Positions 17,507-24,387 of a stretch of 24,803 nt of DNA are shown one piece after another. Where the stretch lies: the IMG/VR virus record IMGVR_UViG_3300020420_000056, positions 1 through 24,803 of that record. One strand, given 5' to 3'. The stretch comes from a virus. A program made the translations under genes and the position numbers. The notes beneath the pieces are model-generated. The model did no database searches. It was given only the letters and a program-made list of their open reading frames with translations, and was not told the DNA's origin. Position 1 is the stretch's first letter, and every line of letters begins with the position of its first letter.

Positions 17507-18382
17507 ATGAATGTTTTATCATGCTTTGATGGTATGGGTTGCGCTAGGATAGCCCTGGATAAACTTGGAATACCTGTCAATAATTATTTTGCTGCAGAGA
17601 TAGATAAGTACGCTATAAAAATTGCAAAGAAAAATTACCCAGACATTTTCCACGTTGGAGACATTACAAAAATAAACGACTATTTTGAATTCTGCCAAGG
17701 CAATACACCCATTGATTTAATGATCGGTGGGTCACCCTGCCAGGGTTTTTCATTCGCGGGTAAACGACTTAATTTTGATGATCCACGTTCTAAACTTTTC
17801 TTTGAGTTTGCCTGGTTCTATTACCGTTTAAAACCAAAATACTTTCTGCTTGAGAACGTGCGTATGAAGAAAGAATGTCAAGACGTTATCTCAAAGTATC
17901 TGGGTGTTGAACCTATTGCCATAAACAGCAGTTTAGTGAGCGCACAGAATCGCTACAGACTTTATTGGACAAACCTACCTTTTGATAAACTGCCAGAAGA
18001 CAAAGGCATAATGCTTCAAGATGTTTTACTTGATGATGCTACTGAGCCTATGTTATCAAATATCTATGGTGGATTTGGTGAGAAGAAACCAAGGGTGCAT
18101 TATGGAAAGTCAGTCACCATGAGAACAGGCGCTGGCGGTGGTCATATACCATCAGTAACAATTAAGGATGGCATTAGACAATTACATCCCATTGAGGTTG
18201 AAAGATTGCAGACAGTTCCCGACAACTATACTGAGGGAGTATCAAATACTCAAAGATATAAAATGTTAGGAAATGGTTTTACTGTAGATGTTATCTGTCA
18301 TTTATTGAGGGGCTTGCAACAGCCCCTTTCTTTTACCAGTCAATATCATCATCAAAATTATTATCAGCTATCTTTGGTTTAG
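17507..18382 (+). CDS. DNA (cytosine-5)-methyltransferase
   Basis: A 291-aa C5-cytosine methyltransferase using S-adenosylmethionine. Motif I is SCFDGMGCARIAL (residues 5-17), motif II carries Glu31, and motif IV is GSPCQGFS with catalytic Cys78. Motif VI is ENV (116-118), motif VIII QNRYRLYW (147-154), the target-recognition region lies at about 155-223, motif IX includes 'HPIEVERLQTVPDNYT', and motif X is GNGFTVDVI (255-263). No cognate endonuclease is next to it, so it is an orphan enzyme, likely protecting phage DNA or altering expression. The last about 20 codons run past a terminator hairpin and over the opposite-strand SSB gene. Confidence 0.95.
   Translation: MNVLSCFDGMGCARIALDKLGIPVNNYFAAEIDKYAIKIAKKNYPDIFHVGDITKINDYFEFCQGNTPIDLMIGGSPCQGFSFAGKRLNFDDPRSKLFFEFAWFYYRLKPKYFLLENVRMKKECQDVISKYLGVEPIAINSSLVSAQNRYRLYWTNLPFDKLPEDKGIMLQDVLLDDATEPMLSNIYGGFGEKKPRVHYGKSVTMRTGAGGGHIPSVTIKDGIRQLHPIEVERLQTVPDNYTEGVSNTQRYKMLGNGFTVDVICHLLRGLQQPLSFTSQYHHQNYYQLSLV
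18308..18334 (+). terminator. Intrinsic terminator inside the 3' end of the methyltransferase frame
   Basis: AGGGGCT (18308-18314), loop TGCAAC, and AGCCCCT (18321-18327) form a perfect 7-bp stem followed by TTCTTTT. It reads as a rho-independent terminator only in the plus direction. It lies 48 bases before the methyltransferase stop codon and at the junction with the opposing SSB gene, so it would end the rightward operon. Confidence 0.7.
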
Positions 18383-20676: not shown

Positions 20677-21061
20677 CAAAAATCAAAAAGATGTAATCGC
20701 TTATTTCTTTTTTAGATTGCAAAACACTTATGGCATATCACGTATGCAAGCACAATGGCCTGATGATAACTCATTGTCCCTGGCAAAGAGAGAGTTTGGC
20801 AAGTCAATAGCAAAGATGAGCAGAGAAGAAGTCAACGCATTGTTTGATGAACTTCATGCAGAAAGGCAAAAAGGCAACGATAAGTTTACGTTTCCCGATA
20901 TTGATGCAATACTTAGTTTAGAGAAAACAAAGTACAGAATAGCTAGATATCATAAACTGTATATACCTCACCAGTTGCAGCCAGATAGTCAAAAAGAAAG
21001 GCGTGAAAAAAATATAATTGCACTTGCTAAACTCAAAGAAGAGTTAGGAATGAATGCATAA
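20606..21061 (+). CDS. Helicase loader, lambda P-like
   Basis: A 151-aa protein from the ATG at 20606, which has AAGGAGAAA 6 bases upstream; a longer frame from 20558 lacks this. It opens MEQQQLKQLMQQAY, and 'FFFRLQNTYGISRMQAQWPD' followed by 'LAKREFGKSIAKMSREEVNA', 'LFDELHAERQ' and 'KFTFPDIDAILSL' follow the pattern of P-type proteins, which deliver the host DnaB helicase to the O-bound origin. It overlaps the O-like gene by 71 bases in another frame, like the close O-P coupling of lambda. It is shorter than lambda P (233 aa). Confidence 0.75.
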   Translation: MEQQQLKQLMQQAYTTTKKPQTFSKNQKDVIAYFFFRLQNTYGISRMQAQWPDDNSLSLAKREFGKSIAKMSREEVNALFDELHAERQKGNDKFTFPDIDAILSLEKTKYRIARYHKLYIPHQLQPDSQKERREKNIIALAKLKEELGMNA

Positions 21062-21311
21062 AATAATTTACAGGGTATACAAAGGCCGTACTCGTAAACT
21101 TACTTACGGTGAAAAGTATTCTGCGTCAGATATTGCAAAAGCATTTGATAGATCGCCAACATTTGTTAGAAAACGTCTTAGAGACAAAGATTGGTTTGAT
21201 GATCAGGATATGGAGAAACGAAAGTATAAACCGTTTGTTACTAAGAAAGAAAAAAATCAATATAATCAAGCACTCAGTAAAAAATGGTTAAGTAAAAAGT
21301 TGGTAAAATAA
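21054..21311 (+). CDS. Small HTH protein of the nin-like region
   Basis: An 85-aa, very basic protein. 'YSASDIAKAFDRSPTFVRKRL' (about residues 22-42) is a homeodomain-like helix-turn-helix. The C-terminal half is Lys/Arg-rich. Its ATG lies inside the end of the P-like gene (8-base overlap). It could be a regulator of the rightward operon or later genes, but no family is certain. Confidence 0.65.
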   Translation: MHKIIYRVYKGRTRKLTYGEKYSASDIAKAFDRSPTFVRKRLRDKDWFDDQDMEKRKYKPFVTKKEKNQYNQALSKKWLSKKLVK

Positions 21312-22193: not shown

Positions 22194-22218
22194 AAAGCCC
22201 CACACAGGGGCTTTTTTT
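22194..22218 (+). terminator. Strong rho-independent terminator
   Basis: AAAGCCCC (22194-22201), loop ACACA and GGGGCTTT (22207-22214) form a perfect 8-bp stem leading into seven T's (22212-22218). It is directional for the plus strand. It ends the rightward early operon and would also stop the short transcript from the promoter just upstream. Confidence 0.88.
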
Positions 22219-22226
22219 GTTATACT
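22218..22226 (+). promoter_or_regulatory. Possible extended -10 element for leaderless expression
   Basis: TGTTATACT is an extended -10-like sequence whose predicted start point lies at or next to the ATG at 22233. The following gene has no Shine-Dalgarno sequence, which would fit a leaderless mRNA. No -35 box is evident. Confidence 0.35.
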
Positions 22227-22232
22227 GAAAAA

Positions 22233-22517
22233 ATGGAAAAGAAAAGTTTACTTAAACGTATCGGTGTATCAGGTTATAACAAGCCAAAACGCACACCAAA
22301 TCATCCTACAAAATCTCACGTTGTTGTTGCAAAATCTGGTAATAAAGTTAAAACTATACGTTTCGGACAGCAAGGAGCTAAGACTGCTGGTAAACCAAAA
22401 GCTGGTGAATCAGATAGGATGAAAAAAAAACGTGCTAGTTTCAAAGCAAGGCATAGAAAAAATATAGCACGAGGTAATATGTCTGCTGCATACTGGGCAA
22501 ACAAAGTTAAATGGTAA
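22233..22517 (+). CDS. Conserved small basic phage protein (DUF6321-like)
   Basis: A 94-aa protein from the ATG at 22233; a frame opening at 22179 would start inside the terminator region. It has about 27 Lys/Arg to 3 Asp/Glu. Blocks 'GVSGYNKPKRTPNHPTKSHV', 'VKTIRFGQQG' and 'SFKARHRKNIARGNMSAAYW' recur nearly unchanged in many marine phages, and I associate them with the DUF6321 family, without certainty. Charge and conserved aromatic end suggest nucleic-acid binding. It is the first of six consecutive basic proteins. Confidence 0.75.
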   Translation: MEKKSLLKRIGVSGYNKPKRTPNHPTKSHVVVAKSGNKVKTIRFGQQGAKTAGKPKAGESDRMKKKRASFKARHRKNIARGNMSAAYWANKVKW

Positions 22518-22530
22518 AAGGAGATTAATC

Positions 22531-22593
22531 ATGCCATATCATAAAGGATCAAAGAGCAAACCAAAGCCAAAGAAAAGTAAGCCAAGGAAGTAA
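22531..22593 (+). CDS. 20-aa Lys-rich micropeptide
   Basis: A 20-codon frame, MPYHKGSKSKPKPKKSKPRK, with nine Lys/Arg and no acidic residue. A strong AAAAGGAGATTAATC leader puts GGAG 7 bases before the ATG, the best ribosome-binding site in this stretch, which is why I accept so short a frame. The start 'MPYHKGS' is seen on other small phage basic proteins, so it may be a remnant or a genuine peptide. Confidence 0.5.
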   Translation: MPYHKGSKSKPKPKKSKPRK

Positions 22594-22594
22594 C

Positions 22595-22768
22595 GTGGCA
22601 AAGGGTACAAAACATTACTTTGCTGATGGCAGAGAGTACACAGGTGGCACTCACAAAATGCCAAATGGTGAAACGCATAGTGGTTCAATGCATACGAGAA
22701 ACAGCAAAAAGTTGTTTCATTTCAAAGACTTATCAGAGAAAGCTAAGAAAAAAGCTATGGGTAAATAA
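22595..22768 (+). CDS. 57-aa small basic protein
   Basis: A frame starting at GTG (22595), one base after the micropeptide stop, encodes MAKGTKHYFADGREYTGGTH, then 'KMPNGETHSGSMHTRNSKKL' and a Lys-rich end. Small proteins with 'DG..YTGGTHKMPNGE.H.G..H...SK.LFH' are conserved in marine phages and unassigned. About 13 Lys/Arg, several His. The preceding ACG/AAG-rich end of the micropeptide serves as its leader, so coupling is likely. Confidence 0.65.
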   Translation: MAKGTKHYFADGREYTGGTHKMPNGETHSGSMHTRNSKKLFHFKDLSEKAKKKAMGK

Positions 22769-22770
22769 CT

Positions 22771-22893
22771 ATGGATATGAAGAAAAAGAAAAAACTTACT
22801 GCACGACAAAGAAAACTCGCAGCTATGTATGGTGACAAAAATAAAATTACTCGCGGTGATGTGATTGCTGCTGCTAGGAAAGGTAAAAAATGA
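22771..22893 (+). CDS. 40-aa small basic protein
   Basis: A 40-codon frame starting MDMKKKKKLTARQRKLAAMY and ending 'RGDVIAAARKGKK', with about 15 Lys/Arg. It begins two bases after the 57-aa gene and its TGA overlaps the next ATG (ATGA). The 'LTARQRKLAAMYGDKNKITR' core looks like a short helix-loop-helix. Similar 'LT.RQ..LA...P...KIT..D..A' pieces occur in small phage proteins; function unknown. Confidence 0.6.
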   Translation: MDMKKKKKLTARQRKLAAMYGDKNKITRGDVIAAARKGKK

Positions 22894-23066
22894 AACATAA
22901 ATCACGTGTCAATGAAGCTGGTAACTACACCAAGCCAAAGATGAGAAAGAGTTTATTTGAAGCTATCAAACGTGGTGGTAAAGGTGGTAGACCTGGGCAA
23001 TGGTCAGCACGTAAAGCACAGATGTTAGCAAAGCAATACAAAGCTAGGGGTGGTGGCTACAGATAA
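22890..23066 (+). CDS. 58-aa conserved small basic protein
   Basis: A 58-codon frame: MKHKSRVNEAGNYTKPKMRK, 'LFEAIKRGGKGGRPGQWSAR', 'KAQMLAKQYKARGGGYR'. About 17 Lys/Arg to 2 acidic. 'RVNEAGNYTKP.MRK' and 'GGKGG.PGQWSARKAQ.LAK.YK..GGGY' are strikingly conserved in many tailed phages of aquatic bacteria, with no known function. Overlaps both neighbours by short start/stop overlaps, showing coupled translation. Confidence 0.75.
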   Translation: MKHKSRVNEAGNYTKPKMRKSLFEAIKRGGKGGRPGQWSARKAQMLAKQYKARGGGYR

Positions 23067-23317
23067 TGTCCCTCAGAAAGCCACAGAAATCGCTTTTAGA
23101 CTGGGGTAAACAAGACTGGGGGACTAAGTCAGGTAAACCATCTACCGTTGGCCCTAAGGCCACAGGAGAGCGTTATCTGCCACGTAGAGCTAGACAGGCA
23201 TTATCATCTCAAGAATATGCAGCGACCAGTAGAAAGAAAAGACGAGACACTAAGGCTGGCAAACAGTTTTCTAAACAACCAAAACGCATATCAAAGAAGA
23301 CAGCCAGGTATCGTTAG
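23066..23317 (+). CDS. 83-aa conserved small basic protein (DUF5872-like)
   Basis: An 83-aa protein, MSLRKPQKSLLDWGKQDWGT, then 'KSGKPS', 'GERYLPRRARQALSSQEYAA' and a basic end 'KQPKRISKKTARYR'. About 25 Lys/Arg to 5 acidic. The 'W..QDWGTKSGK' and 'GERYLP..A..ALS..EYAAT' blocks recall the DUF5872 type found in phages and large DNA viruses; I am not certain of that name. Its start overlaps the previous stop by one base, and its end overlaps the opposing endolysin gene by 4 bases. Confidence 0.75.
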   Translation: MSLRKPQKSLLDWGKQDWGTKSGKPSTVGPKATGERYLPRRARQALSSQEYAATSRKKRRDTKAGKQFSKQPKRISKKTARYR

Positions 23318-23661: not shown

Positions 23662-23859
23662 TTACTTGGTAGGCTTTTTTTTCTTTGCAACTGATTTCTT
23701 TTTTGGTGTTGCTTTCTTCTTGCGTACTGTTTTGTATGCTTCATTTTTATTAGGCGTAGACTTATCATCAGCAACGTACTTACCTTTCTCATCGCGGTTA
23801 CGTACTGTTACATCTTCTGTGCCTGTAAAAAAATTAACAACACTCCTAAATAAACCCAT
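23662..23859 (-). CDS. 65-aa basic protein in the lysis cassette
   Basis: A 65-aa protein starting MGLFRSVVNFFTGTEDVTVR at the ATG at 23859, chosen because GGAG lies 7-10 bases upstream; a longer frame from 23967 overlaps the 47-aa membrane protein. The start is amphipathic and the last 25 residues are a Lys-rich tail (ends 'KKKSVAKKKKPTK'), resembling a histone-H1-like tail. The gene lies between the single-span membrane protein and endolysin. Function unknown. Confidence 0.65.
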   Translation of the reverse strand: MGLFRSVVNFFTGTEDVTVRNRDEKGKYVADDKSTPNKNEAYKTVRKKKATPKKKSVAKKKKPTK

Positions 23860-24006: not shown

Positions 24007-24387
24007 TCATTTTCTCAGACTCATTAACTTGCTAACACCACGTATACCAAAGCTAGAGCTAATCGCAATAAACAGCAAGTATTGATACCAATCTGGGAGC
24101 GTGGATAATGCATCAAAGCCTAGATGCACTCTGTCAATGACAGTAGTATCGCCACTTGCTATCGCATATCCCACCATAAAGATAGGTATGCTAAGAACTA
24201 TTGTCCAGAACTCATCTTTCCAACTATCTTTAGATGACTCTGCCATGATCTGTTCCCAGTTAGCATCATTCTGTATGACATTCATCTTGGCTTGATGCTT
24301 GGCTTGCTTTTCTTCTTTCTTGTTATTGAGCCATGTACCTACAAGGTTAGATACTGGGCCTATAAAGTTATTCAGCATTTTCTTCAA
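24007..24387 (-). CDS. Holin
   Basis: A 126-aa protein with a charged N-terminal half containing an amphipathic helix, then membrane segments at about residues 61-80 (FWTIVLSIPIFMVGYAIASG) and 101-118 (WYQYLLFIAISSSFGIRGV). The 'SWKDEFWTIVLSIP' and 'LPDWYQYLL....SSFGIRG' blocks match the GTA-type/3TM holin pattern common in phages of alphaproteobacteria and marine bacteria. It would open the inner membrane to release the endolysin. It overlaps the upstream 80-aa gene by 20 bases. Confidence 0.8.
   Translation of the reverse strand: MKKMLNNFIGPVSNLVGTWLNNKKEEKQAKHQAKMNVIQNDANWEQIMAESSKDSWKDEFWTIVLSIPIFMVGYAIASGDTTVIDRVHLGFDALSTLPDWYQYLLFIAISSSFGIRGVSKLMSLRK

Follow-up and report, generated by a model that had tools for sequence, protein, structure and literature searches.

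The J protein of phiX174, gp6.7 and gp7.3 of T7 and the internal proteins of T4 are small, often basic proteins found inside virions, and small basic phage proteins are also often takeover factors. Further families relevant here are known from larger viruses. Tlr6F (DUF5754) is conserved in PLVs, virophages, Megavirales and some phages, and its function is not known (PMC4642659). DUF5754 and DUF5872 proteins are both encoded by a giant virus that infects a haptophyte alga (PMC12085832). For phage ICP1, a review predicts that Gp125 is a protease acting on the scaffold, that Gp124 is the scaffold and that Gp122 is the coat protein (PMC9040626). Procapsid-like particles can be made from the ICP1 coat and scaffold proteins in E. 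coli BL21 (PMC10945586).

The window analyzed here, the whole 24,803 nucleotides (24.8 kb) of a linear IMG/VR record, carries a cassette of six small genes, m1 to m6. Three of their products are full-length members of PHROGs without function: m1 of phrog_7595 (E=1.3e-41), m5 of phrog_17747 (E=1.5e-32) and m6 of phrog_14910 (E=4.3e-35). The original prediction that marine phages carry recurring blocks of these proteins, to which no function is assigned, is borne out by these matches. The families are already known and uncharacterized; their linkage, the reading of m5 and m6 as a split domain and the fusion of m1 to a protease were not found in the literature searched.

Organization of the cassette

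On the - strand of the window lies a block of structural genes resembling those of podoviruses. The + strand carries replication and recombination genes, of which the last is a NinG-like gene (PF05766, E=2.1e-10), followed by the cassette. Convergent lysis-type genes, an endolysin-like M15 peptidase among them, lie 3' of it. The features are as follows.

22194-22214, + strand: intrinsic terminator that ends the upstream NinG-like operon, with an 8-pair stem (AAAGCCCC-ACACA-GGGGCTTT) and then a T-run
22218-22226, + strand: putative promoter of the extended -10 type (TGTTATACT), separated from the m1 ATG by exactly 6 nt
22233-22517, + strand: m1, 94 aa, pI 11.7, phrog_7595 family
22531-22593, + strand: m2, 20 aa, with 9 Lys/Arg, zero acidic residues and a good ribosome-binding site
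22595-22768, + strand: m3, 57 aa, GTG start, moderately basic
22771-22893, + strand: m4, 40 aa, Lys-rich
22890-23066, + strand: m5, 58 aa, phrog_17747, apparent N-terminal half of a split DUF5872-like protein
23066-23317, + strand: m6, 83 aa, phrog_14910, apparent C-terminal half of the same protein

The gaps are 13 bp (m1-m2), 1 bp (m2-m3) and 2 bp (m3-m4), and the last three genes overlap, by 4 bp for m4-m5 and by 1 bp for m5-m6, where the m5 stop and the m6 start share one base (TAATG). Given these overlaps, translational coupling is likely. The positions, sizes, common strand and close spacing originally predicted for the six genes were all verified, as were the ends NKVKW (m1), KARGGGYR (m5) and TARYR (m6) and the location behind a terminator, which is a strong one. 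The six proteins had also been described as all extremely basic. Their pI values are 10.1-11.7, and five of them are the top five in net charge per residue among the 42 gene models of the window, but m3 is the exception and the description does not extend to it. Two more small Lys-rich ORFs (KR fraction 0.31) are found near the cassette, at 23662-23859 (-) and 21054-21311 (+). A DNA cytosine methyltransferase-like ORF, read from the sequence by its PCQGFSFAGKR motif, lies amid the + strand genes at 17507-18382.

The terminator is kept in 13 aligned relatives. Directly after its T-run, the pattern TGTTATAMT-N6-ATG is found in the window and in all 13 of these relatives, with a spacer that varies in its letters and is constant in length; the site is unique within the window. 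It lacks a -35 hexamer and was for that reason missed by a promoter consensus scan. The m1 ATG has no ribosome-binding site in the window or in the 13 relatives. The extended -10 element is placed for transcription to start at the ATG, from which we infer that the m1 mRNA is a candidate leaderless message.

Coding constraint and variation

Close relatives were taken from 15 loci fetched with m3, with 75-95% identity over the cassette region. The ORFs covered by these sequences retain frame, start and stop, and changes in length are by whole codons, such that m2 has 19, 20 or 22 aa and the length of m1 shifts as well. Pooled dN/dS against the window is 0.139 for m1, 0.144 for m2, 0.088 for m3, 0.119 for m4, 0.082 for m5 and 0.075 for m6, from 10-13 related sequences per gene, so that the comparisons are not independent. 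Given the conserved frames, the whole-codon length changes and the low dN/dS, all six genes are coding and under purifying selection, which disposes of the possibility, raised with the original prediction, that the short frames lack coding constraint.

For the two smallest products, m2 (20 aa) and m4 (40 aa), the support comes from close relatives and motif matches. Relatives of the m4 motif occur in 7 further loci, never more than 1.5 kb from other cassette members, with 0 in a shuffled control. MPYxxG..KK peptides resembling m2 lie beside m1 in many loci, and a loose form of the motif gives 25 matches vs 11 in shuffled sequence. At L304:1192-1320, m2 and m4 are apparently joined (MPYKKYSPKQKKLAAVAGNPKKITAADLKGLRK).

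An extra basic ORF of 103 aa lies between m3 and m4 in four relatives (L173:3094-3405, L174:2575-2886, L179:2949-3260 and L181:4177-4488), and in another, L180, a 97-aa ORF replaces m4. The number of genes in the cassette therefore varies. A short stretch (window 22770-22816) is matched on both sides of the 103-aa insert in the four relatives.

Distribution and linkage

At least 600 matches each to m1 and m5 were found in IMG/VR viral contigs, along with 335 tblastn-confirmed relatives of m3. A search of 84,980 bacterial and archaeal genomes yielded just 18 relatives of m1, every one in MAG contigs, and the m1 family is therefore essentially viral. The m1 homologue of Roseophage SIO1 (L162:6001-6213, record 24065-24277) lies in an unannotated part of the deposited genome. 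Among culturable relatives, Roseobacter phage CRP-603, CRP-1 and HMO-2011 have m1, m5 and m6, Methylophilales phage MEP402 has m5-m6 and Lentibacter phage ICBM2 has m1.

Searches with the trimmed profiles place an m6 gene no more than 3 kb from m5, in the same orientation, in 121 of 122 cases, and m6 is downstream in 120 of these 121. Where the locus extends 4 kb to either side of m5, m6 is present in 44/44 and m1 in 30/44. A second count used only loci with 2.5 kb on each side. Here m5 is accompanied by m6 in 36/36 and by m1 in 20/36, m1 by m5 in 15/32, and the fused form of m5-m6 by m1 in 25/32; the count for m3, with m1 in 25/30, is inflated by several loci that are close relatives of the window. 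A divergent m1 variant ending in YWSC has m3 nearby in 13/41 and m5-m6 in only 3/41. The m5-m6 pair is thus obligate.

The genes m1, m3, m5 and m6 are clustered in many unrelated contigs and do not scatter independently, as the original prediction of a co-occurring set would have it. Its further expectation of a conserved order holds only for m5-m6, as m1 is found on either side of this pair and m3 is optional. A small basic DUF6321 protein (L044:5408-5713, E=6.3e-13, and 14 other loci) often lies about 1 kb upstream of m5-m6, and the DUF6321 domain also forms the C-termini of several large phage protein families without known function.

A probable split DUF5872-like protein

The products of m5 and m6 occur as a single protein in 8 loci, and m6 is fused to m1 in 5, in the first locus sets; a search with the fused m5-m6 protein finds the fusion to be widespread. 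A natural fusion matches DUF5872 (PF19197) over positions 2-111 of 116 (E=1.8e-6), the fusion in locus L084 scores above the curated cut-off (28.9 vs 27.5 bits), and 30 of the 43 rows of the family alignment, which also holds half-length rows, match the domain. Taken singly, the m5 and m6 of the window have zero Pfam matches, such that membership in DUF5872 would come only through the fusion. Since the fused form matches over both halves, the likeliest reading of m5 and m6 is a split protein: what is one domain in the natural fusions looks, from these matches, to be divided over two overlapping genes in the window. AF2 predicts a confident compact fold for the fusion.

In one locus, L030, m6 is joined to a tape-measure-like protein, recognized by its tape-measure motif. 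As this is a single contig, it may be an assembly error. In HMO-2011 gp63 (L002:5800-6156), m5 is preceded in the same protein by a basic MPLTTKGTKIKSAM...KGEQVFYAAANKG segment.

The m1 domain and its fusion to a predicted protease

An alignment of 40 diverse members of the m1 family, including a variant ending in YWSCKAW, has nine invariant columns, among them FG, RH and the W at the C-terminus. AF2 models m1 (pLDDT 86, pTM 0.76) as a compact domain with a beta hairpin and three short helices. A Foldseek search with this model returned phage relatives, an uncultured-phage protein named XkdF, ORF125 of ICP1 and a protein from Tunisvirus. Searches of the PDB gave no meaningful match, either by fold for the m1 model or by sequence for m1, m5 and m6, where the best was a chance-like designed protein (E=0.003).

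The C-terminus of ICP1 Gp125 (residues 184-261) is an m1 domain, as judged by phrog_7595 (E=5.8e-11) and by hhalign (97.1%, 7.3e-11), and its N-terminus is a Peptidase_S78_2/XkdF domain (E=6.6e-10). The ICP1 genes are ordered portal, Gp126, Gp125, Gp124, decoration and major head. The predicted prohead protease of ICP1 and the window differ in that m1 is free-standing in the window, where a Pfam search finds no Peptidase_S78_2/XkdF domain in it, and it is not itself counted among the prohead proteases. Gp125 is a single well-placed fusion. Matches to phrog_220, "minor head protein and DNA pilot", are weak and may be taken as supportive only (m1, E=0.001; locus L096, 7.5e-5; ICP1 Gp125, 4e-8).

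Two other relationships were considered. Ten m1 members weakly match PF23980, a tail tube initiator (best E=0.0034); the strength is comparable to that of the DUF5754 matches described below, and membership is therefore claimed for neither family. The initial profiles of m1, m5 and m6 matched one another because their training sequences included fusion proteins; once the profiles were trimmed, hhalign detected no relationship between any of m1, m3, m5 and m6.

Gene neighborhood in relatives

The commonest large neighbor of m5/m6 or m1 loci is the terminase large subunit, in two clusters of 41 and 27 loci at medians of +1.7 kb and +1.5 kb, and the portal is next (34 loci). A putative major-capsid gene lies 2.3 kb upstream of fused m5-m6 in 39/80 loci. 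A portal-like gene lies 1.3 kb upstream of m3 in 28/80, with scaffold- and capsid-like genes downstream; several gene names in these last two sets of counts are taken from sequence and from similar named clusters. In KBS-S-2A, a free m1 gene is flanked by genes for a minor head protein of the MuF type and for a head scaffolding protein. The cassette genes of the relatives share a strand with the terminase, portal and capsid genes. In S-CRES1, a lysozyme adjoins m5-m6.

A portal or scaffold context was also expected for the m1 domain of HTVC008M, but its flanks are a cytidyltransferase-like protein and an unknown; HTVC008M is therefore excluded from the head context.

A probable role in head assembly or packaging

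The cassette is probably a module of small proteins that builds or fills the phage head. This is preferred over takeover of the host nucleoid or ribosome because of the head-gene neighbors, the protease fusion and the predicted folded structures. The original prediction had offered DNA condensation, host takeover and a role in the capsid, and the capsid fits best, given the same neighbors and fusion and predicted folds that are not protamine-like. A neighborhood of head genes does not prove function, as late operons hold lysis genes too, and the cassette of the window itself speaks against a head role in being opposite in strand to the structural block and convergent with a lysis gene.

The genes, their coding constraint, linkage, fusions and neighborhood and the predicted folds are observations; upon them can be built a conditional mechanism for virion presence, binding partners, DNA binding and biochemical role. 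The six genes would be co-expressed, in the window probably via their own promoter behind the terminator. The chains of m5 and m6 would together form one DUF5872-like helical protein, with m2-m4 as small Lys-rich companions. The small proteins would be brought into the prohead by interacting with its coat, scaffold, portal or protease, with the m1 domain as the part that binds a prohead component, and their basic surfaces may touch packaged DNA or acidic scaffold. The literature searched yielded neither virion proteomics of relatives nor binding data.

Bulk charge neutralization or DNA condensation in the capsid, by largely unstructured basic peptides packaged along with the genome, is unlikely. 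The proteins have the extreme basicity and tiny size for it, with aromatic C-termini on m1, m5 and m6, and m2 and m4 resemble pure Lys/Arg tails. However, the compact folds predicted with confidence for m1 and the m5-m6 fusion weaken simple neutralization, the FG, RH and final W invariant across the 40 diverse m1 sequences suggest specific contacts, and the m1 domain is present on a protease too. The suggestion of charge neutralization in the capsid thus stands as to its setting and is weakened as to its mechanism.

Early binding of the peptides to the ribosomes or nucleoid DNA of the infected host is less likely still, and nothing here favored the original suggestion of such a takeover. Small basic phage proteins frequently act in this way, and the window cassette comes after the genes of the replication and recombination strand and may have its own promoter. 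The relatives, though, have these genes on the same strand as those for terminase, portal and capsid, the m1 domain forms part of a predicted prohead protease, and the cassette proteins match zero Pfam DNA- or ribosome-binding families.

Least probable is a late accessory role in lysis or DNA ejection outside the head, to which the convergent M15 endolysin-like gene, the S-CRES1 lysozyme and the one m6 fusion to a tape-measure-like protein would point, but lysis neighbors vary among relatives, an enzyme signature is absent, and the ICP1 fusion and the MuF/scaffold setting favor the head.

Comparison with known systems

The cassette proteins resemble the J protein of phiX174 and the T7 and T4 proteins named above in small size and basicity. 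J is unfolded, whereas AF2 models of m1 and of m5-m6 are folded, unlike J-like or protamine-like peptides.

The resemblance to eukaryotic viruses is of another kind. DUF5754/Tlr6F (PF19058) is weakly matched by 13-14 of 31-40 m1-family members (best E=0.0046), with 0/10 in a shuffled control; all fall below the curated cut-off (0/14 phage records above it), so that membership is not claimed, and window m1 itself has no match. In the Foldseek search, the m1 model matched a 95-aa protein of Tunisvirus, a Marseillevirid, with TM 0.58/0.58, E=9e-3 and prob 1.00. The weak DUF5754 signal and this structural match hint at a candidate module that phages would share with giant viruses of eukaryotes.

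Hundreds of marine phage contigs carry these genes, for which "hypothetical proteins" could now be replaced by a testable head-assembly module, with a possible route to the function of DUF5872 and perhaps Tlr6F. It is conceivable, though doubtful, that m1 and m5-m6 are the phage forms of Tlr6F and DUF5872, small basic domains common to tailed phages and giant or Polinton-like viruses that assemble or fill DNA-packaging capsids. If so, the ICP1 protease fusion would be the first functional handle on Tlr6F.
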